64,000 nt of DNA, from assembly GCA_002245135.1 (NCBI GenBank), contig NGBS01000588.1, positions 186,001-250,000 on the forward strand. Direction: 5' to 3'. The notes below the pieces were generated by a model that was not told where the DNA came from, did no database searches, and worked only from the letters and a program-made list of their open reading frames with translations. Source of the stretch: Proteromonas lacertae (Eukaryota > Sar > Bigyra > Opalinata > Proteromonadidae). This document shows, one piece after another, positions 8,407-38,526 of the stretch. Made by a program: the position numbers and the translations under genes. Each line of letters opens with the position of its first letter. The first letter of the stretch is position 1.

Positions 8407-9788
8407 TTATTCTAATGAATACTTGACAATATCAATTGAATTGTCTTTGTTATACAAACATACAAATGGATACAATGTTCCAGTCACATTTTTAAACAAT
8501 AATAATTCATATCCATCTTCATACTGAATCCAAACAGTATGTTCCTCCATATCGAATATTATCTCATACTTCCCACCATTCTCCAACTTCCTCGAAGGAT
8601 AATTCACTTTTACACCCAAACCACCACCTAAAACAGATCCACTCACATTCATAGTTAAACTCAATGAAGATTTCTCATCTTTCAATTTATTACTTGGATC
8701 TTCATAGTGATTATTAGTAGTTGCTCCAATAACAAAGATACTGCCATGAATTTGAAATTGATAGCGATAAACACCACAAATCATAGTAATATTCATATAA
8801 CAATGAGGATAACCACCTCCATGTTTAGATTTAGTTATTGATCTACCTTTGTTACATATCAACATAAAATCATGTTTATATTCTTCAATAAAATAACAAT
8901 CACCTTCATTCAATGATGGTGCTGGAGGTATTGCCATTGATAAGTGTTCTACAATTTTTATATCTTTTATTTCCTTTATTACTTCATCTATTGTTAATCT
9001 CATTCTTTCATCTAATAATAACATCTTCTCCAAAATTGGAGTGATTTTATAAGCTAATGGAACAGTTAATGTTGTATAACTGCATTTTAATATATGTTTA
9101 ATTAATTTATGTAATGTTGGTCCTTCAAATGGTGGTTTTCCACAAAATAAATAATACATTAATACTCCCAAACTCCAAATATCTCCAGATTTATTCAACT
9201 GTTTATTCTCTAACACTTCGGGTGGGTAATATGATATATTATTGTAATTAATTGGTAATGTATAGTTTGATCCTTCGTATAATAAATACATCCCAATATC
9301 TGATAATAAATATCTCCCATCTTCTGTTATTAGAATATTGGATGTCTTAATTGCTCCAGTTATGATGTTCTTCTTGTGTGCTATTTGAATTATTGTTGCT
9401 ATTTGGAAGATTAATTTGAAACGACCTGCATCTTTGAATGACTCGTTAGGATCTATGGCGGATAAGGATGATTTGTATTCTTTTGTTACTATGATTATAT
9501 AATTGTCTATCTTCTTTAATTTTAGATATGGAACAATTGCATCAACTTGTAGATTATTAACTCTTTGAATTGTGTTGAAAAAGGAATTTGTGTTTATATG
9601 TGAGAATCCACTACACACAACAGCTTTTAGTCTTAGTACCTTTGGTGTCATTTTGTATAACAATCTGCAACAATGAACTGACGGTTGAGAAGGTAGATCA
9701 TCTGAAATCTGAAAGATATAAATGTATATTATACTTCATAGTCATCACCCAAATAATTATGTGCCAAAGTTGATGCTTTTACACCCAT
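8407..9788 (-). CDS. Pseudokinase-SPRY protein
   Basis: Two exons joined across a 26-nt intron (9709-9734). The start at 9788 gives MGVKASTLAHNYLGDDYE, a possible myristoylation signal. The kinase-like domain has YPPEVLENKQL, DIWSLGVLMYYLF and a catalytic loop IITGAIKTSNILI. The HRD Asp is Ala, although Lys and Asn remain, and DFG is DIG. The phosphoacceptor base is thus missing. The C-terminal third is a SPRY/B30.2-like domain with GRSITKSKHGGGYPHCYMN and YEIIFDMEEHTVWIQYEDG. That tail resembles the SPRY ends of the BTB-like genes at 16086, 19236 and 27895. A binding or adaptor role is inferred. Confidence 0.75.
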
Positions 9789-18922: not shown

Positions 18923-19235
18923 TCAAAACAGCAAAAATAGAAAAATTGAATGTTTGAGGCTTGAATAATATTTTTTTATCGTTTTTCTCGCTAAAGCAAA
19001 TTTCTATATAGTTAATATTATTATAACTATGAAAATGTTATATTATACAGAAATCACCAAAAATATATATCTTTATCATAACAGAGTTGTTACAATTTAG
19101 AATATTATTGTAATATCTTATATACTTAAGTTAAATTCTTTATATTATAAAATTACAACTACAGAACAAGAAAATTAGAAATGAAATTTGTGACATTGAC
19201 ATCGTCAATTGAAGGTCATAAATTCAATCTCAAAA
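18923..19235. other. Intergenic region with the start of the duplicated block
   Basis: This 313-bp spacer between divergent genes is AT-rich. Its last 67 bp (from 19169) are identical, or nearly so, to 27828-27894, so the duplication reaches into the promoter side of the BTB-like gene. Confidence 0.6.
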
Positions 19236-21671
19236 ATGAAAGTATTTGATTGTAATATCAGTGAATACGGGTATAATTTGTATTGAATGTAATGAAATTA
19301 GACTTGGCAGATTATATGCCCGAAATGGTTTAAGTGATTTAAGAGTTTTAGTTGGAAATGAAGAGATAATGAGTTCAAAGGCTATTTTTATGATGAGCAA
19401 CCCGAAATTGAAAGAACTGATTGAAAGAAGTGAAAATGGTAATAGTTTAAAGTTGTGTGAAGAGTGTAAGAAAGAATCATTTTTTGAGTTAGAAAAGTAT
19501 TGCAGTGGTGGGTGTATGAATATAGAAATGAATAATGTATGTGAAATATTAAGTATGTGTATTTGCTATGAAGAATATAAAATAATTGAATATTGTTTGA
19601 GATTTATAAAAAGTCATTCAAATGAAGATATAATAAATAAATTAATGAAGATATATAATCGATATTTGAATATTAGTGAAGAAATAACAAATGAGATGAG
19701 AATAATAAGTAGTGATTATATAAAGAAAAATGGATACAAACTATTGAAAGAAGAATATTTGAATGAAATGGAAATGAAAGATTTAAAAATGATATTGAAA
19801 GATATAAAATATATAAAGAATGATGAGAATAGTTTATTGAAAATGTTGTATAAGAAATATGAAAAAGAAATGAATGTGAAAAATATGAGAAATGATGAAA
19901 GAAAAGAAATAGATAATGAATATATTGATTTAATATGTAAGTCAATCAATTTTGAAAATATAGAAATGAGATTATTAGAATATAAAGAAAAAGAATTTGT
20001 GAATAATAAAGTGAATTTATCAAGATGGTATTATGTAAATAAAGAAAAAGAATATAATAATCACATATGCATTAATTTAGAAAGAATAAAAGAAAAAGAA
20101 ATAGAAGAAATAATAATGAAATATTATATAGAAGAAGAAAGAATATTAATCGAAGAAAGTGATATAGAAATATTGAATAAGAATAAGAATAAGATAAAAG
20201 AAATAATCCAAATATTAATGACTGAAGAAGATATAAAAATGAAAGAGATTGGAATGATGATAATAATTGATGATGAAAAGATGAATAATAATGTGAATGA
20301 TATAATGAATAAAGATGAAGAATGCAATATAATAATGTTATTATTAAATGAATATAAAAATAATGAAAATGAAAGAATATATAAATGTTTTAGTTTATTT
20401 GTGAATGATGAAGACATTTTAAATACTCTGAAATATTTATGTGGAATAGAGATATTATTTCATATATTGAATTATAGTTGTTATTTATCAAATGAATCAA
20501 AAGAATTAATAATGACTTTTATAAAAGATGAAAGATTATTAGAAAGTGATTATGAAAGCATGAGAGATATAATAAAAGATAAAGAAATTTTATCAGAATT
20601 TATAACTGAAATCTCTTATTTCTATTATCCATCTTCAAAAGTGAAATTATGTGGTTGTTTTTCAATCAAACCAAATCATGATGGATTAAAATGTAAATTT
20701 TCAATCAAACCTGAATTACCAAAAGAAATAACTTTGAATGAAGAAACAGGTGAAATTATTGGTAAAATGGATAAAGAAATGGATGATATAGAATATACAA
20801 TAAAATGTGAAAATATTCTTAATAAAATGGAAAATAAACTTTCATTTATTTATGAAGAAGTTGTATTTTCAGAAGAATATAAGAATGAGAATGTTTCAAT
20901 TAGTAATAATGGAAAGACAATAACAAATAATTCTGATAAACCATTTTTATATCATTGTTTCATAAATCTGAAAATGGAAAATGGAGTTTATCATATCAAA
21001 TATAAATTTCATCAAAATGGAAATAAATATGATCATATGATGTTAGGTTTATTTACTAATAATGCATATTCTGGATATAATATTTATGATGAATCAACAA
21101 CATGTAATTATTATGCATATAAAGGTAAAAGTCAAGATATTACTGATTATTGTAATATTGGAAGAGTTGTTAATAAAAATCCAAATTTCAATAATCATGG
21201 AGATGGTTCAATTTATGAAGTGATTGTTGATATGAATAAAAGAGAATTTTGGATAAGTCATAATAATTCATCTCCTGTTTTACTTGTTGATGATTTACCT
21301 TCTCCATTATATCCATTATGTAAACCAACTCCATATGGTTGTTCAATAGAATTATTATCTGTTTCTCATTTTGAATAATTATTGATACAATTATAACCTA
21401 TAAATTCATTATTAATCTTGATTATTTCTTTTATCTACTTATTCAACTACACAATTATATTTATATTATAAAAGTATTAAATATTGAATATTGATGGTTT
21501 ATAAAAAATATGAGTGTTGTTATCGAAATATATGTAGTTGTGAAAATGAGTTTGACATAATATATAGAATACTTTAATCTTTTACTAGTGTTATATTGTT
21601 AAAACTTCATTTTATGTCATTCTCTCAATCTTCTTTTCTAAATTCGTTATTAACATAGATTGCATTTACTT
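19169..21671 (+). repeat. Segmental duplication, copy A (intact gene)
   Basis: About 2.5 kb is repeated in direct orientation at 27828-30332, offset by 8,659 bp at the left end. Similarity covers 67 bp upstream, the whole coding region and about 290 bp downstream, then stops abruptly. Differences seen by eye are scattered single bases plus the rearrangements described for copy B. Confidence 0.9.
19236..21378 (+). CDS. BTB-like/Ig-like/SPRY family protein (intact copy)
   Basis: Exon 1 is only 35 nt (19236-19270, MKVFDCNISEY plus two bases). A 31-nt intron (19271-19301) precedes the long second exon. The join gives GLGRLYARNGLSDLRVLVGN, which matches the first exon join of the paralogue at 16086. 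The BTB-like core continues through EEIMSSKAIFMMSNPKLKEL. A long Lys/Glu/Ile/Asn-rich helical region follows, then a putative-Ig-like segment (FSIKPELPKEITLNEETGE) and a SPRY-like domain (NGKTITNNSDKPFLYHCF, GDGSIYEVIVDMNKREFW). The product is about 703 residues. BTB-BACK proteins often serve as cullin-3 adaptors and SPRY as the substrate reader; that is a family-based guess, and BTB assignment here is weak. Confidence 0.7.
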
Positions 21672-22036
21672 ATTAATAAGCTATTATAAAATGCTGATTA
21701 TATATGATTCATATATTCTTCATCTTAATCATTAATTTCTAAACCACTAACTTTTCATTTTATAGTTATTTTTATATTATTTTATATCCCCCCCCCCCCT
21801 CTTATTGTGAGTAACTATATTTTGATATTGAAATATAATTTCATACATTACAAATGTATGTAATTATGTAAATAATCTATTTCAATTTTAAAGTGTAACA
21901 ATATATGCCATTAGTAACATTTAAGAGCATAATACATAATGTAAACTCTTTATAGCAGAAATACAGAGATTTTAAAAATGTGGGGAAAGTTTCGGTAATT
22001 CTGCCGTTTTTTATTTCTTTTTAATTTTTTAATAGT
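21379..22036. other. Intergenic region with duplication tail and poly-C tract
   Basis: The first 293 bp are shared with 30045-30332 as the 3' part of the duplication. The rest is unique and AT-rich and includes a run of 12 C at 21788-21799. No gene is visible. Confidence 0.6.
21788..21799. repeat. Poly-C tract (12 C)
   Basis: An uninterrupted run of twelve cytosines sits in an intergenic region that is otherwise mostly A and T. I see no comparable G or C homopolymer elsewhere in the window. Confidence 0.9.
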
Positions 22037-27827: not shown

Positions 27828-30332
27828 AGAAAATTAGAAATGAAATTTGTGACATTGACATCGTCAATTGAAGGTCATAAATTCAATCTCAAAAATGAAA
27901 GTATTTGATTGTAATATCAGTGAATACGGGTATAATTTGTATTGAATGTAATGAAATTAGACTTGGCAGATTATATGCCCGAAATGGTTTAAGTGATTTA
28001 AGAGTTTTAGTTGGAAATGAAGAGATAATGAGTTCAAAGGCTATTTTTATGATGAGCAACCCGAAATTGAAAGAACTGATTGAAAGAAGTGAAAATGGTA
28101 ATAGTTTAAAGTTGTGTGAAGAGTGTAAGAAAGAATCATTTTTTGAGTTAGAAAAGTATTACAGTGGTGGGTGTATGAATATAGAAATGAATAATGTATG
28201 TGAAATATTAAGTATGTGTATTTGCTATGAAGAATATAAAATAATTGAATATTGTTTGAGATTTATAAAAAGTCATTCAAATGAAGATATAATAAATAAA
28301 TTAATGAAGATATATAATCGATATTTGAATATTAGTGAAGAAATAACAAATGAGATGAGAATAATAAGTAGTGATTATATAAAGAAAAATGGATACAAAC
28401 TATTGAAAGAAGAATATTTGAATGAAATGGAAATGAAAGATTTAAAAATGATATTGAAAGATATAAAATATATAAAGAATGATGAGAATAGTTTATTGAA
28501 AATGTTGTATAAGAAATATGAAAAAGAAATGAATGTAAAAATATGAGAAATGATGAAAGAAAAGAAATAGATAATGAATATATTGATTTAATATGTAAGT
28601 CAATCAATTTTGAAAATATAGAAATGAGATTATTAGAATATAAAGAAAAAGAATTTGTGAATAATAAAGTGAATTTATCAAGATGGTATTATGTAAATAA
28701 AGAAAAAGAATATAATAATCACATATTCATAAATTTAGAAAGAATAAAAGAAAAAGAAATAGAAGAAATAATAATGAAATATTATATAGAAGAAGAAAGA
28801 ATATTAATCGAAGAAAGTGATATTGAAATATTGAAATATTGAATAAGAATAAGAATAAGATAAAAGAAATAATCCAAATATTAATGACTGAAGAAGATAT
28901 AAAAATGAAAGAGATTGGAATGATGATAATAATTGATGATGAAAAGATGAATAATAATGTGAATGATATAATGAATAAAGATGAAGAATGCAATATAATA
29001 ATGTTATTATTAAATGAACATAAAAATAATGAAAATGAAAGAATATATAAATGTTTTAGTTTATTTGTGAATGATGAAGACATTTTAAATACTCTGAAAT
29101 ATTTATGTGGAATAGAGATATTATTTCATATATTGAATTATAGTTGTTATTTATCAAATGAATCAAAAGAATTAATAATGACTTTTATAAAAGATGAAAG
29201 ATTATTAGAAAGTGATTATGAAAGCATGAGAGATATAATAAAAGATAAAGAAATTTTATCAGAATTTATAACTGAAATCTCTTATTTCTATTATCCATCT
29301 TCAAAAGTGAAATTATGTGGTTGTTTTTCAATCAAACCAAATCATGATGGATTAAAATGTAAATTTTCAATCAAACCTGAATTACCAAAAGAAATAACTT
29401 TGAATGAAGAAACAGGTGAAATTATTGGTAAAATGGATAAAGAAATGGATGATATAGAATATACAATAAAATGTGAAAATATTCTTAATAAAATGGAAAA
29501 TAAACTTTCATTTATTTATGAAGAAGTTGTATTTTCAGAAGAATATAAGAATGAGAATGTTTCAATTAGTAATAATGGAAAGACAATAACAAATAATTCT
29601 GATAAACCATTTTTATATCATTGTTTCATAAATCTGAAAATGGAAAATGGAGTTTATCACATCAAATATAAAATCATGAGAAATAAATCACCCATGATTC
29701 AATTAAACTATGTTGTATTCTACCAATAATATGTGGAGGTGGTTATAGTGATTATGAAAAATAATATATGTGGTTATAATGCATATAAAGGTAAAAGTCA
29801 AGATATTACGATATACTGTCATATTGGAAGAGTTGTTAATAAAAATCCAAATTTCAATAATCATCGAGATGGTTCAATTTATGAAGTGATAGTTGATATG
29901 AATAAAAGAGAATTTTGGATAAGTCATAATAATTCATCTCCTGTTTTACTTGTTGATGATTTACCTTCTCCATTATATCCATTATGTAAACCAACTCCAT
30001 ATGGTTGTTCAATAGAATTATTATCTGTTTCTCATTTTGAATAATTATTGATATAATTATCATCTATAAATTCATTATTAATCTTGATTATTTCTTTTAT
30101 CTACTTATTCAACTACACAATTATATTTATATTATAAAAGTATTAAATATTGAATATTGATGGTTTATAAAAAATATGAGTGTTGTTATCGAAATATATG
30201 TAGTTGTGAAGATGAGTTTGACATAATATATAGAATACTTTAATCTTTTACTAGTGTTATATTGTTAAAACTTCATTTTATGTCATTCTCTCATTCTTAT
30301 TTTCTAAATTCGTTATTAACATAGATTGCATT
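27828..30332 (+). repeat. Segmental duplication, copy B (broken gene)
   Basis: Direct repeat of 19169-21671. It begins within about 120 bp of the acyl-CoA synthetase stop. Most of it differs from copy A by only scattered bases, but it carries a 1-base deletion (about 28536), an 8-base tandem insertion near 28835, and a stretch near 29671-29790 where the sequence is replaced by unrelated or strongly diverged DNA. Confidence 0.9.
27895..30044 (+). pseudogene. Broken copy of the BTB-like/Ig-like/SPRY gene
   Basis: Same start, 35-nt first exon and 31-nt intron as the intact gene at 19236. The frame is lost after EKEMNV because one base is missing (about 28536). It is lost again where an 8-base unit is repeated (GATATTGAAATATTGAAATATTG region, 28820-28843). 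The SPRY domain is then interrupted at about 29671, where the expected HQNGNKYDHMMLG segment is replaced by about 110 bp carrying stops. After 29780 the similarity to copy A resumes to the same stop. Three independent lesions make this a pseudogene rather than a sequencing problem. Near-identity elsewhere implies the duplication is recent. Confidence 0.85.
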
Positions 30333-30749
30333 TACATAATAATAATCTATTATTATATTCACCTTTTATTAGTATTTACATATTAGAAAAAGCACAATAT
30401 GGAGTGATTAATAAAAAATGTTAATTATATAATTTAAATGTTATAAATACTATATCATATTAAAAAACACAAAACAAATAATTATATGTCACAAAACAGT
30501 CTAATGATTGGATATGTTTTGGATTTGATAAACAGAAATTGGTAGAAACTATTTCAAGCATTAAATGAATAGGAATTGAAATTATATTCATATTTTGACA
30601 ATTTATGTTTTCTGACGGTAATTGTTAGGTAAATTTGACTTGAATATTTTAAAAAAAGCTATTTCTCGTAAAAGAGATTCATTGATTTTTTTATAGTATA
30701 ATTTAGGATTACTGATTTATATATACCTTATTAGAACCAATAAAATCTA
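30333..30749. other. Intergenic region upstream of the kinesin gene
   Basis: These 417 bp past the duplication edge are AT-rich, with no visible gene. They should contain the kinesin promoter. Confidence 0.5.
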
Positions 30750-33700
30750 ATGGATAGAATAAATGTATAGTTGCTATTTTCATTTGTAGGTATTTTGTAG
30801 ATTTCGTCCATTAAACAGCAAAGAAAAACCGCCAATGTGTGTTACATTCCAGAATGAAGTATATTTCCTGTTTTATAGATTTAATTTAGAACACACTAAT
30901 AATGACTTGTCAAAAAACCCAGAAAGTAACAAAATTTGATTTTGATCATGTTTTCTCCAACCAAACTACTCAAGATGAAATGTATTAAAATAATAGTAGT
31001 TTATCAAACAATAGATTCAATATAATCGCTGAACCAATCTTAAGTGGAGCATTTGAAGGCTTTAACGGCACAATATTCGCATATGGTCAAACATCATCAG
31101 GTAAAACCTGGACAATGGAAGGTATACCCAAACCTTCTAACCAAAGAGGTATAATTCCACGTTCAATTGATTGGATCTTCGAAAAAATCGGTGCTTCCAA
31201 CGATCTAGAACAATATGATTTAAGAATATCTATGTTAGAAATATACAATGAAGAAGTAAGAGATTTGTTAATAGAAAAATCACAAAATTTGAACATCAGA
31301 GGTACTCCAGCAACAGGATTCTATGTAGCGAATCTAACTACAATCAGTGTGAACAGTCCTCAAGAAATGAAAGAATCTTTTAGTATAGGTACAAAGAATA
31401 GATCAACAGGTGCAACTAACATGAACGAACATTCATCCCGTTCTCACAGTGTATTTATAATAGAAATGAAAAGAAAATTAGCTGATGGTAAACAATTATC
31501 TTCAAAGGTATATTTAGTTGATTTAGCTGGTAGTGAAAATGCTGGTAGAACTGGTGCTGAAGGTGGAAGATTACAAGAAGGTGCAAATATTAACAAATCA
31601 TTATCAACATTAGGAAGTGTTATTAGATGTTTAACACAAGAAAAAGGTCAGTTACCTCCGTTTCGTGATTCTAAGTTGACTATGATATTACACAATGCAA
31701 TTGGTGGAAACAGTAAAACTGCATTAATCTTGAATTGTTCACCTGCTCAGATTAATATTGAAGATACATTATCTACACTTAGATTTGGACAGTTAGCTAA
31801 GAAAATTAAGAATAAGGTTACTGCTAATGTGGAAGCATCTTCATCAGAATTATTGAAACAATTGAACAGTGCATTAGCTCAAATACAATCATTGAAAGCA
31901 CAATTAGATGCTAAAGGAAAGATAGCAAAAGGAGGAAACATTGTATCAACTGATAATAATGAATATCAACAATTAGTTGCAGAAAAAGCTAATCTTTTAA
32001 CTGATGTCAATACACTGAAAGCTCAAGTAGATGAATTAACAATTAGTTTAAATGAAGAAAGAGAACAAGCAACAAAAAGAGAAGAGATTATGCATAATAA
32101 AGATAATATTATTGCAGATTTAAAGAAGGCAATAGCAGAGAAAGATGCAACTATAGCAACAATGAAACAGACTCATTCTATGGAGATTGAGAAGATGAAT
32201 GCAGATACATCAGCACAAATTGAATTATTAAATAAAACAAACAGTGAACAAATTCAAGCATTGCAGAAGGAGTTGGATGATTTGAAACAGAAATCTTTTA
32301 ATGATAATACTCAACATAATGAGCAGGTAATGAAGTATCAGAATCAAATACAAGAATTACAACAAAAGATTAGTAGTTTAGAACAAGAGAAGATATTTAT
32401 ACAAACTGATTTACAAGGTAAAATTATCAATATTCAAGGACAATTAGATGCTTCAGAATCATACAATAAACGATTGGAAGAAGTACAATCTAACTTGAGA
32501 TATCAAGTACAAGAATCAAAGACAACAATTGATTTGTTAAATAGGAAATTAGACTCAATGAATGATTTGAAAGCAATGTTATTGAATCAAGTAACTGGTC
32601 CAAGAGTTGCTGGTGCTACAGGTAGTGGTGCTGCTGATCAAAGTCAAATGACACCAGCAATAAGAGCAGCAATGGAAGAAACAATGAAGAAGAATATGGA
32701 TGAAATGACAAAGAAATTATATGATCAACACATGGCTGAGATAAACTCATTAAAAGAACAAATACAAAAGATCAATGAAGAGAAACAATATATTCAAACT
32801 GATTTAAGCTGGACAATTGACTAATGTACAAAACCAATTGAAAGCTTCTCAAGATTATGTTAGAAAGTTGAATGATATGCAGAATGAGATATTATCAAGA
32901 GAAAAAGACTATCAAAATACAATTCATATGTTGAATAATAAGTTATTGGCAATGACTGATATTGAAGCTGTTATTACAAGCCAAGCTGCCAATCCTGAAC
33001 ATAATACATTTGATAAGAAACTTCCAGAAAATGCGAATGTAATTATTGAAGATATAGTATTGAAGAATATAGATCCAATTACCAAGCAAAGGCTTGATAC
33101 TCAGAAGCAAGAAATCATCCAATTGAAAGATGATTTAGAGAAATTAACCAATAGTAATATGGAAAAGATATCAGATTTGAATGGTCAAGTTCAATCATTA
33201 CAAAGCCAATTAACAGTATCTCAAGATTATGTGAATAAACTAACAACATCACAAAATGAATTAAACCAACATATACAAGAATATCAAAGAGAAATTTCAG
33301 AATTAAAAGGAAAATTAGAAACAATGAAACAAGTTGAAAGTATTATAAAGAATCAAGCAGCTGATGGTAGTGTTAGTGCAGGTGGTGGTGTTGGTGTATC
33401 TTCAGCAGTCCAAGAGTTAATGGAAGAAGCAATAAAGAAGAATATGGATGAAATTAGTGCTAAACGAAGTGAGGAACAATTACAAGAAATAAACAATTTG
33501 AATTCAAAGTTAAGTAACTTGGAGCAAGAGAATCAATCATTAAGAGTGAATTTAGAATCGAAGATACAAAACTTAAATAACCAATTAGAAGAGAGACAAG
33601 AAAGATTAAAGGATATGACGAATAAACAAAGTGAATTGAATAATAAGATAAAAGAATATGAAGATACAATACAACAATTAAATACAAAATTAGAAGGAAT

Positions 33701-34666
33701 GAACCAATTAGATGCTTTAATTCATAATAATAATGATAATGGTAATAGTAATACTAATGATAGTAGCAATAACACTGTCAATATTCAAAATCCAATTATT
33801 CAAAGATTAATCAACGAAACAGTAAACAAGAATATGGATGAATTAACCACTAAAAAGATTAAAGATTTGGAGTTAGAGATTAATGAATTAAAAGAAAATA
33901 ATAATCGTTTAGAACAAGATAAACAGTATATTCAAACTGATATGCAAGGACAATTATCAAACTTACAGGGACAATTGAATGCAGCACAAGATTATAATAA
34001 GAAAATTACTGTATAAACAATTATTATTATATTATATATTATATTATTATTATTATAGGAAATGAATACTAAACAAGCCGAACATGCTAAAGAACTTCAA
34101 GCCACCATTCAAATGTTAAATGAAAAGTTATCCAATATGAATGAATTAGAATCCATTATTAAACAATCAAATCTTACCTCCTCCTTCTTCAACAATCAGT
34201 GGTAGTAATGATATTAGTAATAAACCACCAGTTAGAGATAGAAGAAACAGTGCATTAGAAGATTCAGAGACAATGAAACGATTAGATGATACTTACAAGA
34301 GATTGAATGAAGAACAAGATAAGAACATGAGATTAGAACATGAGAAACAACAGATTGAGAATAAATTAGCCTCAACTCAGAAGAATCTATTGGCTGTAGG
34401 TGAGATGTATAATACTGTAGTCTCTCAACATGCTGTTGAATATAATAAATTTGTATATTTCATATATATATTTATGTTATAGAAAGAAGAATTAATAGCA
34501 TTCTACAAGAAACAAAATGAACAAATCACTGAATCGAATAAACAATTAATTGAAGAAAGAAATGAATGTGCAAAGAAGAATACTGAATATACAAATGTTA
34601 TAAGTACATTACAGACAAGAATAGATAGCATGACCAAACAATTAGCAACCATAGGAAGTGAAAATA

Positions 34667-34707
<41 letters not shown>

Positions 34708-36328
34708 ATGAAATAGATCAATTAAAGAGTCAATTACAACAAGTACAAACTCAAGTTCAAACTACAAGAGCTAGTGATGAATATAGAACAAAAATGAATA
34801 GAAATGTGATAAGACCAAATCGGACCAACTACTTCTACAACATCCAATTTAATATCACATATTAAAGAGACTGTTGCATTTACATTAAAACATAAAACTG
34901 CTGTTCCACAAGTAAGTAGGTCAGAGTATATTTTATTTATTTATTTTTATATTATAGAAGTGAATTTGTTGAGAATCTAGGTGTTGCTGCAAAGGATATT
35001 TATGATTTGATTGACTTTGTTAACAAATCAAATGAATCAATCAGACAACATATAGAGAATAATATGAATATTGTTACATTGACAGAGAATTTGGGAATAA
35101 GAAATAATGAATTAGAGGAAATATTAAGAAAAATGAATGAAGCAATGAATATTAGTGTTCAATGCGTATATATATATATATAATATTGTTATTATTATGT
35201 TTTATACAGGCAAATCAATGTAATCCAATAATCTCAAGTTTAGCAAATAAAGCTCGTTGTTATGAACAATTGATTGAATTAGGAAAGCAATATTTGAAAC
35301 AGGAAGCTGAATTCAATCACTACAGTCAAAAACTGTCAGAATTAAAGTCAAAGAGTAGTGATCAAAACAAGTTATATAATGTATGTATATTAAATATTAT
35401 TATTGTTTAGAATCAAAATAAATACACAATAGCAAAAGAACAATTTGATAGAATCAGAGTAAGATATGATGATTGGAAAGCATATCATATTCATGCAACA
35501 AGAACAATATTTTTAAATGAATGTTATGATTTATTAGAGAAACAATTGGTATTTGTACAACAGTATTGTGAAATATTGAGAAGTATTAGTAAACCAGCAA
35601 ATATTACATCATTTGAAGATTATATTGTTCCAGTTCCATCTGATAATTATCAAGCAACAGGATATTATCAACAACAACCACCTAATTTTGGATCAACATG
35701 TATATAATATAATATTATATTATAATATTACTATATTATAGTACAAGGAGTTCCACTACCACCATCACTTCAACAACAGCAACAAATTCAGAGTAGAACA
35801 ATGAGATCTGGAACTCCAACTAGACCACCACCACCACCACCCCAACAACAGAAACCAAATGCAGCAACAATGAGATCAGTTACACCTACAAGAACTCCAC
35901 CACCTCCACCACCAATGAGGACTTTAAGACCAACTTCAATGACAATGACTACACCAATTCCACCTCCACCACAATTTATTAATCAACAGAGAACAATGGC
36001 TCCTCCACCACCTCCACCATTGAATAGAACATTACAACCTCAAGCACAACAACAACAGCAACAGATGTATCAGACACAACCACCACAAGTGCAACAACAA
36101 CAAGCTCAACAACCACAAATGTATCAAACTCAACAACCTCAACAACAATCTCAAGGTTTATACACTGTTGTTGCTAACTTTGCATATCAAGGACAACAGA
36201 AATCAGATTTATCATTTAATAAAGGTGATAGAATTGTGATATTTAAGGAAGTCTCCAGTGAATGGTTGTATGGAGGATTAAACGGAAAAGTTGGTATATT
36301 CCCAGCAAATTTTGTGCAAAGAATATAA
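30750..36328 (+). CDS. Kinesin-1-like motor fused to coiled-coil repeats, BAR-like region and SH3
   Basis: The start at 30750 (MDRIN) joins VFCRFRPLNSKEKPP across a 25-nt intron. The motor has the P-loop FAYGQTSSGKTWTMEG, SSRSHSVFI, VDLAGSENAGRTG and NINKSLSTLGSVIRCL, all typical of conventional kinesin. A long coiled coil with five tandem repeats follows (about 32385-34360). Exons from about 34850 to 35640 then encode a helical region resembling a BAR domain: SLANKARCYEQLIELGKQYL, EAEFNHYSQKLSELK, AKEQFDRIRVRYDDWKAYH. A Pro/Gln-rich linker and an SH3 domain end the protein (LYTVVANFAYQGQQKSDLSF; SEWLYGGLNGKVGIFPANFV). No intergenic gap separates motor from SH3. Three extra bases (32806-32807, 34173-34175, 34821-34823) break the frame. 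The likely role is microtubule transport coupled to curved membranes. Confidence 0.8.
32385..34360 (+). repeat. Five tandem coiled-coil repeats of about 120-130 residues in the kinesin stalk
   Basis: Units start near 32385, 32780, 33140, 33515 and 33910. Each opens with a block like YIQTDxxGQLxNxQxQLxAxQDY, continues with a heptad stretch ending LNxKLxxMxxLxxxIxNQ, and most contain a spacer and the KNMDEx motif. Copies are clearly divergent, so the array is old at protein level. Confidence 0.8.
34667..34704 (+). repeat. (AT)n tract inside a kinesin intron
   Basis: An alternating AT tract of about 36 bp directly follows a GT donor within the coiled-coil part of the kinesin gene and lies fully inside the intron. 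Confidence 0.85.
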
Positions 36329-36660: not shown

Positions 36661-38526
36661 ATGAATGAAGAGCATCCTGTGGATTCTGATGCTAATTTAT
36701 CTATGCCTAGATACGAAGAAGTAAGGGAACAGATATTGAATCACTCATATCATGATTTACAACAATCTGATTTATCTGCTGAATTAGGTGTTGAGGTATT
36801 TGATTGATATTTCTATTCTGTTAGATACATGATGAAAACACATATCATATACAAGAGGATGGTATATCTAACGAGATTGATACTTTTATAAAGCACTTGG
36901 TATTACTGAATTTCAATCATGATAAAATATTGGATGCAATATCATGTTTTGAGGAATTTAGAGAAAATCCTCCTCTAGACAATTTATTCTTTCTACACAT
37001 TTTCCTCTTCAAATTATCAACATTACAACAACAAAATCAAGATTTTGATACTCCATTAGATAAAAATATATACACACCAATTAATTTATTACCAGATACA
37101 CAGTTTCCTTGGCCAATCTCTGAAATGGCACAATTTGAGTTTAATAATAGTGATCATTTAATTACATTGGATAGAGTAATCGTAATAATTGGTCTTCCCA
37201 AAACAAATGATGTGAAATTACTGCAAGTTGCTCATGAATTGTTATATGCATTTCTCTTTACTGAATTAGCATATGTACTATCTGTTAATATTCCATGTAA
37301 AGAAGATGGAGTATCAACAGGATGTGCATTTATAGAGTTTGGCTCTTTTTTAGAAATTTCTATAATTTGTAAGGCGATTGAAGGATTTAAGTTTGGTGAT
37401 GGTGTTTTACATTGTCGACCATTTAGTGATTTGAGTAGTGGATCAGATTTGATGAATGAAGACGAATTAATTCGATTGAGAAGAGAAAGTATAGGAGAAG
37501 AGGAAGGAGAAGAAATTGATTTGGATTTATCTGATAATAATAATTTACTAAATACGCATATATCTCCATCTCCAATAAATACACCAAATACAGATATTCT
37601 AATACAGCAAATAGGTGTATTACCTGATATAAATAATAATAATATTAATACATCATCTATAACATCATCAATGGTAGATGCAATGGTTAATCCACCTCCA
37701 CCCAGTTCAAATGGTGAAAATGATGGTAATACTTCAAATACTTCTGTTACATTAGAAAGTCTAACAAATGAAGTTCAGAAATTACAAATAATGAATCAAT
37801 CAATATCTATCAAGCTTGATACAATCACTAATAGATATTCAGAGTTAGAAAATAACAATAGAATAATCTGTCAAAGAAATAAGCATTTGACTGATAAAAA
37901 TCAAACATTAATCGAATCTATTGACCATCTAAAACATACACTAAGGTTAATAACAGCTTCAAGAGATCAAATGTCAAGTAGATATGGTGAGTTAAGCAGA
38001 GATTTAGATAGTGCAAGATCTGCTCTATTGAGAAGTAGTAGACTGGTGGATAGTAAAGAGAATGAATTATTGAACTTGAAAGCAACAAATGAGAAATTAA
38101 GGGAAGAAATTGCCGATTTGACTAGACCAAATAGGAATAGAGAGTATATTTTATTATTTCTACTTGTATATATTTATATATTGTTTTAGACTTGAAGAAA
38201 GTGTAGAAACAATGAGAAAATTGACATTAGACAATTTAAAGGTAATGAGTGTAAAAGATTTGTCTAGTTTTAGTGATGTGTTAGAAGAATTCGTATTGAA
38301 TCTGAGAAAAGCAAAGGATTTCGCTGTTGAAAGAGAAAAGTCAGAAACTCAGTCTAAATTGGATGAAATTGTATGTGTTATTTGCCAGAAGAATAATAAA
38401 AATGTTTTATTACTTCCATGTAAGCATTTTTGCATTTGTGAAGAATGTTCTAATAATGAAGAGTTTAATAATAAATGTCCTATATGTAGAAGTCCAATAA
38501 TTGATAAAATGATAATTTATTCATAA
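36661..38526 (+). CDS. RRM-like, coiled-coil and C3HC4 RING protein
   Basis: Starts at 36661 (MNEEHPVDSDANLSMPRYEE). Introns are 36796-36824 (29 nt) and 38144-38189 (46 nt). Around residues 130-230 lies an RRM-like fold (RVIVIIGLPKTNDVKLLQVA ... GCAFIEFGSFLEISIICKA). An acidic/Asn/Pro-rich linker and a coiled coil follow (about residues 310-440). The C-terminus is a RING finger, CVICQKNNKNVLLLPCKHFC then CNKCPICRSPI-like spacing, most similar in style to the C-terminal RINGs of MGRN1/BIRC-type E3s. An RNA-binding E3 ubiquitin ligase is inferred. No frame break is seen. Confidence 0.75.

Follow-up and report, generated by a model that had tools for sequence, protein, structure and literature searches.

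A putative single gene joining a kinesin-1-type motor to a BAR-like, Pro/Gln-rich and SH3 tail in Proteromonas lacertae

Conventional kinesin reaches its cargo through adaptors, and the IAK autoinhibitory motif and light-chain binding are features of the kinesin-1 tail. Direct membrane binding by a kinesin is known from KIF16B-type kinesin-3, where it is provided by a PX domain; that motor belongs to another kinesin class than the one discussed here, uses another lipid-binding fold and has no SH3 domain. BAR domains bend or sense curved membrane and SH3 domains bind Pro-rich partners. In long-tailed myosin I, whose motor is actin-based, membrane is bound by TH1, a region unrelated to BAR. The domain order of long-tailed myosin I is given as head-TH1-SH3 (PMC3942036). 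Here we describe a locus with a similar plan, a motor followed by a putative membrane-binding tail and a C-terminal SH3, for which long-tailed myosin I is the nearest known working analogue. It lies at positions 30750-36328 on the forward strand of a 64,000-nucleotide stretch of Proteromonas lacertae DNA (hereafter the window; contig C50, NGBS01000588.1, positions 186001-250000), part of an assembly of 50.2 Mb in 1181 contigs (GCA_002245135.1).

We favour, with moderate confidence, the reading that this locus is one gene, in which a kinesin-1-type motor has lost its usual tail and carries instead a BAR-Pro/Gln-SH3 unit that comes from a protein of amphiphysin/Rvs167 type. The gene model runs from a start codon at 30750 to a TAA stop codon at 36326-36328 in eleven exons, separated by ten deduced introns of 25-50 nt. 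It encodes, in this order, a kinesin motor domain (30750-31807, end set by hand), a stalk of six similar repeats (31808-34812, boundaries by eye), a BAR-like domain (34846-35605, limits by hand), a Pro/Gln-rich linker (35606-36169) and an SH3 domain (36170-36319, limits by hand). The introns are in phase and no intergenic gap separates motor, stalk and tail, as an earlier note on this DNA had claimed; a single bridging exon, exon 7 (34717-34925, between an acceptor ending at 34716 and a GTATAT donor at 34926), encodes the last part of the stalk as well as the first part of the tail. The same note had the splices preserving the frame throughout, which is true if intron 7 starts at 34926 but false if it starts at the alternative GTAAGT at 34912, which our model does not use. 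Given the former donor, all ten deduced introns read GTAT...YAG.

The spliced motor covers the Pfam Kinesin profile from end to end (1-327 of 327, 2.9e-105) and its translation contains GQTSSGKT, NEHSSRSH and DLAGSE, which we take to be the kinesin nucleotide-binding motifs. Judged by its sequence, it is a member of the Kinesin superfamily with a complete domain, and the intact kinesin-1-like motor of the earlier note is recovered once three short introns deduced from the exon model (30765-30789, 30859-30889 and 30982-31014) are spliced out. Kinesin-1 heavy chains are supported as its nearest relatives by solved structures matching at E (expect value) <=1e-40: among the best 60 of 139 distinct sequences, the top 15 were all named kinesin heavy chain or kinesin-1, with 1goj first (2.5e-85), so that the class is assigned by best matches. 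Fungal and animal kinesin-1 heavy chains resemble this protein in having the most similar motor followed by a long stalk, and differ from it in the tail, which here is BAR-like with an SH3, and in the stalk, which here is built of repeats; reading the translation by eye, we saw no IAK-type motif near the C-terminus. The assembly contains 128 kinesin matches, each exon being counted separately. The nearest intact paralogues by DNA, on contigs C1071 and C913 (~68% identity over 0.76 kb), are both absent from the list of 15 SH3 places in the genome, and at the C1071 locus the motor is followed on its 3' side by long low-complexity open reading frames (ORFs) with a coiled-coil look. Among the 15 listed SH3 places, compared by eye with the listed kinesins, the present one alone has a kinesin upstream of it at a distance of no more than 10 kb and on the same strand.

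The stalk separates motor and tail by ~950 residues and consists of six mutually alignable segments of ~100-125 residues each, cut by eye in an alignment that carries no significance test; the stalk also has Gly/Asn/Pro hinges. Its coiled-coil character, also claimed earlier, agrees with its appearance to the eye and with weak sub-cut-off Pfam matches. Three stalk introns are deduced from the exon model (34011-34058, 34453-34482 and 34667-34716), and repeat 6, the most divergent, runs via two in-phase introns into exon 7. The assembled sequence breaks the frame three times, as judged from ORF limits: within repeat 2 (32808-32821), at the hinge of repeats 5 and 6 (34150-34202) and at the boundary of stalk and BAR-like tail (34813-34862). 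The repeat pattern picks up again beyond the first break and repeats also continue past the second; it is therefore unlikely that a gene ends at either of these two breaks.

The BAR-like domain is spread over four exons (34717-34925, 34958-35165, 35210-35380 and 35411-35699), and is supported by its similarity to two genes on contig C80 and by the site of intron 7 (34926-34957). The linker, interrupted by an intron at 35700-35741, contains 42 Gln and 40 Pro in 175 residues, with two [RK]xxPxxP motifs and one PxxPx[RK], and the C-terminal domain matches Pfam SH3_1 (1.5e-10) and SH3_9 (1.6e-10), bearing out the Pro-rich linker and SH3 that had been noticed before.

Contig C80 carries, at ~76450-79010, two tandem and nearly identical BAR-Pro-SH3 genes that differ chiefly at the N-terminus. 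When the whole genome was searched with 191 residues of the tail, these two genes were the only matches at E <=10 other than the tail itself (0.24 and 0.29; 10 candidates scored). Read unspliced, one of them matches Pfam BAR at 1.6e-5 (25.1 bits, cut-off 28.5) and SH3 at 7.5e-15, while no match to Pfam BAR was obtained, within the limits used, for the second copy or for the spliced C80b. When just the two spliced C80 sequences were searched with a hidden Markov model (HMM) built solely from outside proteins, namely 8 of 26 BAR-SH3 proteins retrieved with a C80 query, they matched at 5.6e-14 and 8e-12. Pairwise BLAST of the tail against the pair aligns the SH3 (9e-11) and, at 5e-5, part of helix 2, in conserved order, and both sides show by eye a KHKT and, nine residues on in the tail and ten in C80, a phase-2 intron that interrupts a GAA codon; intron 7 thus shares its phase with C80 intron 1, and its position to within one residue. 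That a weak best match would have the same three-part order by chance seems unlikely.

Profiles that include the C80 pair also single out the tail. With a profile of the pair alone, the tail came first of 577 scored sequences, at 17.6 bits against 9.9 for the best control (612 were submitted: the tail, 12 stalk segments, 99 other ORF segments and 500 shuffles); a mixed profile including the pair gave 13.7 against 7.2 for the best other sequence. Using hhalign, the tail ranked first of 133 with either profile; it reached a probability of 52%, while the highest value among the 132 controls was 4.8%. As two BAR-Pro-SH3 genes in the same genome match the tail, the BAR reading is strengthened, and a BAR identity of the tail is supported indirectly, via the pair. 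We read the tail as a captured BAR-SH3 unit of amphiphysin/Rvs167 type, sharing with the C80 proteins the BAR-like region, the Pro-rich linker, the C-terminal SH3 and the intron site; the C80 proteins have a starting methionine of their own, whereas here the N-terminus runs on into the kinesin.

Several results weigh against the single gene that we favour. The C80 pair was selected for matching the tail, so its profile is no independent test. Up to an E of 10, Pfam detects no BAR domain in the tail, and a genome-wide Pfam BAR search at E <=1 missed both the tail and the C80 genes and matched only a gene on contig C1171, which by Pfam is a PX-Vps5 gene. With the outside-only HMM the tail ranked 7th of 575 scored sequences (5.4 bits), and with the corresponding profile in hhalign 5th of 133. 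The amphipathic helix that may precede the BAR region, a feature of N-BAR proteins, has a moment that 26% of shuffles also reach. Neither of two hairpin models of the helices 2-3 region found a Foldseek match at E <=0.001. Relatives were sought in protein searches with the tail as a 455-residue query (residues 1-265 scored, 1042 candidates) and with residues 1285-1520 of a 1735-residue read-through (876 candidates); neither gave a match at E <=10, nor did any relative of this architecture emerge from them. No second genomic copy of the locus spanning the join of stalk and tail was found in a DNA search of the assembly. The frame breaks number three where ~1.4 would be expected (see below), and the third sits exactly at the boundary of stalk and tail. 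The earlier note had stated that the fusion hinges on the breaks being errors or bypassed, a judgement that we share.

The position of this third break is what would be expected if two abutting genes had been taken for one, a coiled-coil kinesin ending at ~34862 and a BAR-SH3 gene that begins with the ATG at 34794 or has its start codon in an exon that escaped detection. Such an ATG, followed by an intron at 34806-34869, would place a methionine and nine residues before KHKT, by eye a start like that of the C80 genes. That intron would, however, read GTGATA...GAG, while the 16 introns deduced in this gene and the two C80 genes all begin with GTAT and end in TAG (15) or CAG (1). Moreover, the two genes would have no intergenic space between them, whereas the nearest flanking ORFs lie ~330 and ~700 bases away, and a single exon carries both ends. 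In the frame of the tail, the first Met after a stop at 34810 falls within the BAR-like helices. We consider the two-gene explanation unlikely.

A somewhat smaller probability is given to a decaying fusion or kinesin pseudogene, in which the breaks would be genuine mutations and a full-length protein would not be produced. The three breaks themselves speak for it, as do a broken near-copy of a gene immediately upstream and a degraded partial copy of this kinesin, found on contig C719 beside a copy of that upstream gene. Yet the motor motifs, the deduced splice sites, the SH3 and the stalk repeats appear intact, and similar indels occur between near-identical contigs elsewhere: across ten contig pairs of 97.3-99.9% identity we counted 14 frame-changing indels in 25,555 bases of ORF (ORFs of at least 120 residues on either strand, some of the indels falling in low-complexity stretches), or one per 1.8 kb. 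Indels are more frequent than substitutions in some of these pairs, one of which has 6 gap openings and 2 mismatches. Halving the rate per contig, we estimated by hand that 5.2 kb of coding sequence would contain ~1.4 breaks, and that at least three would occur about one time in six. It is thus plausible that the breaks arose as single-base errors in the consensus or as allelic indels. Introns as their cause were rejected, since the splice sites needed differ from the 16 deduced and there are none for break 1: no GTAT-donor intron of 15-119 nt repairs the frame at any of the three breaks, frame-restoring introns for breaks 2 and 3 exist only with non-GTAT donors, and for break 1 there is no GT-AG candidate whatever in this size range.

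The failure of Pfam and of the outside-only profile to recognise a BAR would also fit a helical tail that is a further coiled coil joined to the linker and SH3, and the structure models, which resemble many unrelated hairpins, fit it too. Two models of the helices 2-3 region (including ten retained-intron residues) were long helical hairpins of low to moderate confidence, with a mean predicted local distance difference test score (pLDDT) of 55.6 from a single sequence and 71.3 from three sequences; the MAFFT alignments of the tail with BAR proteins have a doubtful 15-residue gap in helix 3, and the latter model was built on an alignment of this kind. By title, BAR-superfamily entries accounted for 19 of the 50 Foldseek rows listed for one model and 16 of the 50 for the other, none of them significant, and in VIA-align BAR chains came level with unrelated hairpins. 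Such a predicted hairpin neither proves nor disproves the three-helix crescent dimer of the BAR superfamily. A sequence search of solved structures with the tail gave 17 weak matches, one of which is 3caz, titled 'BAR protein' (E 0.35). The link to the C80 genes with their common intron, and the 12 stalk control segments, all of which score below the tail with the C80 profile, argue against a further coiled coil, which we regard as improbable. The BAR-like helical region proposed in the earlier note is recovered by the BAR-SH3 profile from the same genome, and not by Pfam BAR or the outside-only profile. That a kinesin gene and a BAR-SH3 gene were wrongly joined during assembly would agree with the lack of a second copy across the join, but is very improbable given that the join lies inside one exon, with strands in agreement and plausible splice sites on both sides.

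The earlier note knew of no established kinesin-BAR-SH3 family, and none emerged from our protein and literature searches: exact phrases for a kinesin-BAR or kinesin-SH3 fusion returned nothing, and wider searches showed no such fusion in titles or abstract openings among the matches listed. 'SH3' and 'BAR' occur as whole words 0 times in the main text of a survey of 1624 kinesins (PMC2867816), and 'kinesin' occurs 0 times in the main text of a BAR review (PMC5487894). The kinesin survey reports 105 architectures, most of them confined to one organism (PMC2867816); because lineage-specific fusions of kinesins are common, a kinesin-BAR-SH3 protein would be a new variant and not a new kind.

A protein of this design could, as the earlier note proposed, couple motion along microtubules to membrane tubulation. 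The two-headed motor would dimerise via the repeat stalk, and the paired tails would form a BAR dimer able to bind curved membrane directly. The SH3 may recruit Pro-rich partners, or may fold back onto the protein's own linker and so hold the motor off. As it walks along the microtubule, the motor would then draw out a tubule coated by BAR domains, and friction from this coat may contribute to severing the tubule. Endophilin-coated tubes pulled by kinesin undergo scission in vitro (PMC5576516), which makes friction-driven cutting by a single chain a testable idea. That one polypeptide pulls, coats and cuts tubules, and is switched by its SH3 together with its poly-proline linker, is doubtful. 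A kinesin with curvature-binding and SH3 modules of its own would allow one to ask, in a natural system, if membrane tubes can be drawn and cut by a single chain that unites motor and BAR coat, and it would be a microtubule counterpart to long-tailed myosin I.

Directly upstream of the kinesin, the window contains the second of two tandem near-copies of a large gene (19169-21687 and 27828-30353), 97.0% identical over 2538 columns; the intact copy has no Pfam match and the second, with 12 groups of indels, is broken into several frames. On contig C719 (8411-10521) a degraded partial copy of this upstream gene is accompanied by pieces of the kinesin, probably as an old segmental duplication; this stretch was rejected as a second copy of the locus, since its matches end at window position 34187, before the BAR-like tail. 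Downstream, ORFs at 36825-38526 have first a coiled-coil look and then a RING finger (zf-C3HC4_3, 1.7e-15), and are possibly one gene. On the minus strand at 8407-9735 the window also encodes a protein kinase, which in addition matches SPRY weakly and below the cut-off. Tandem ribosomal DNA units of ~7.6-7.7 kb are present on contig C357 and other contigs, in which a eukaryotic small-subunit ribosomal RNA was found.

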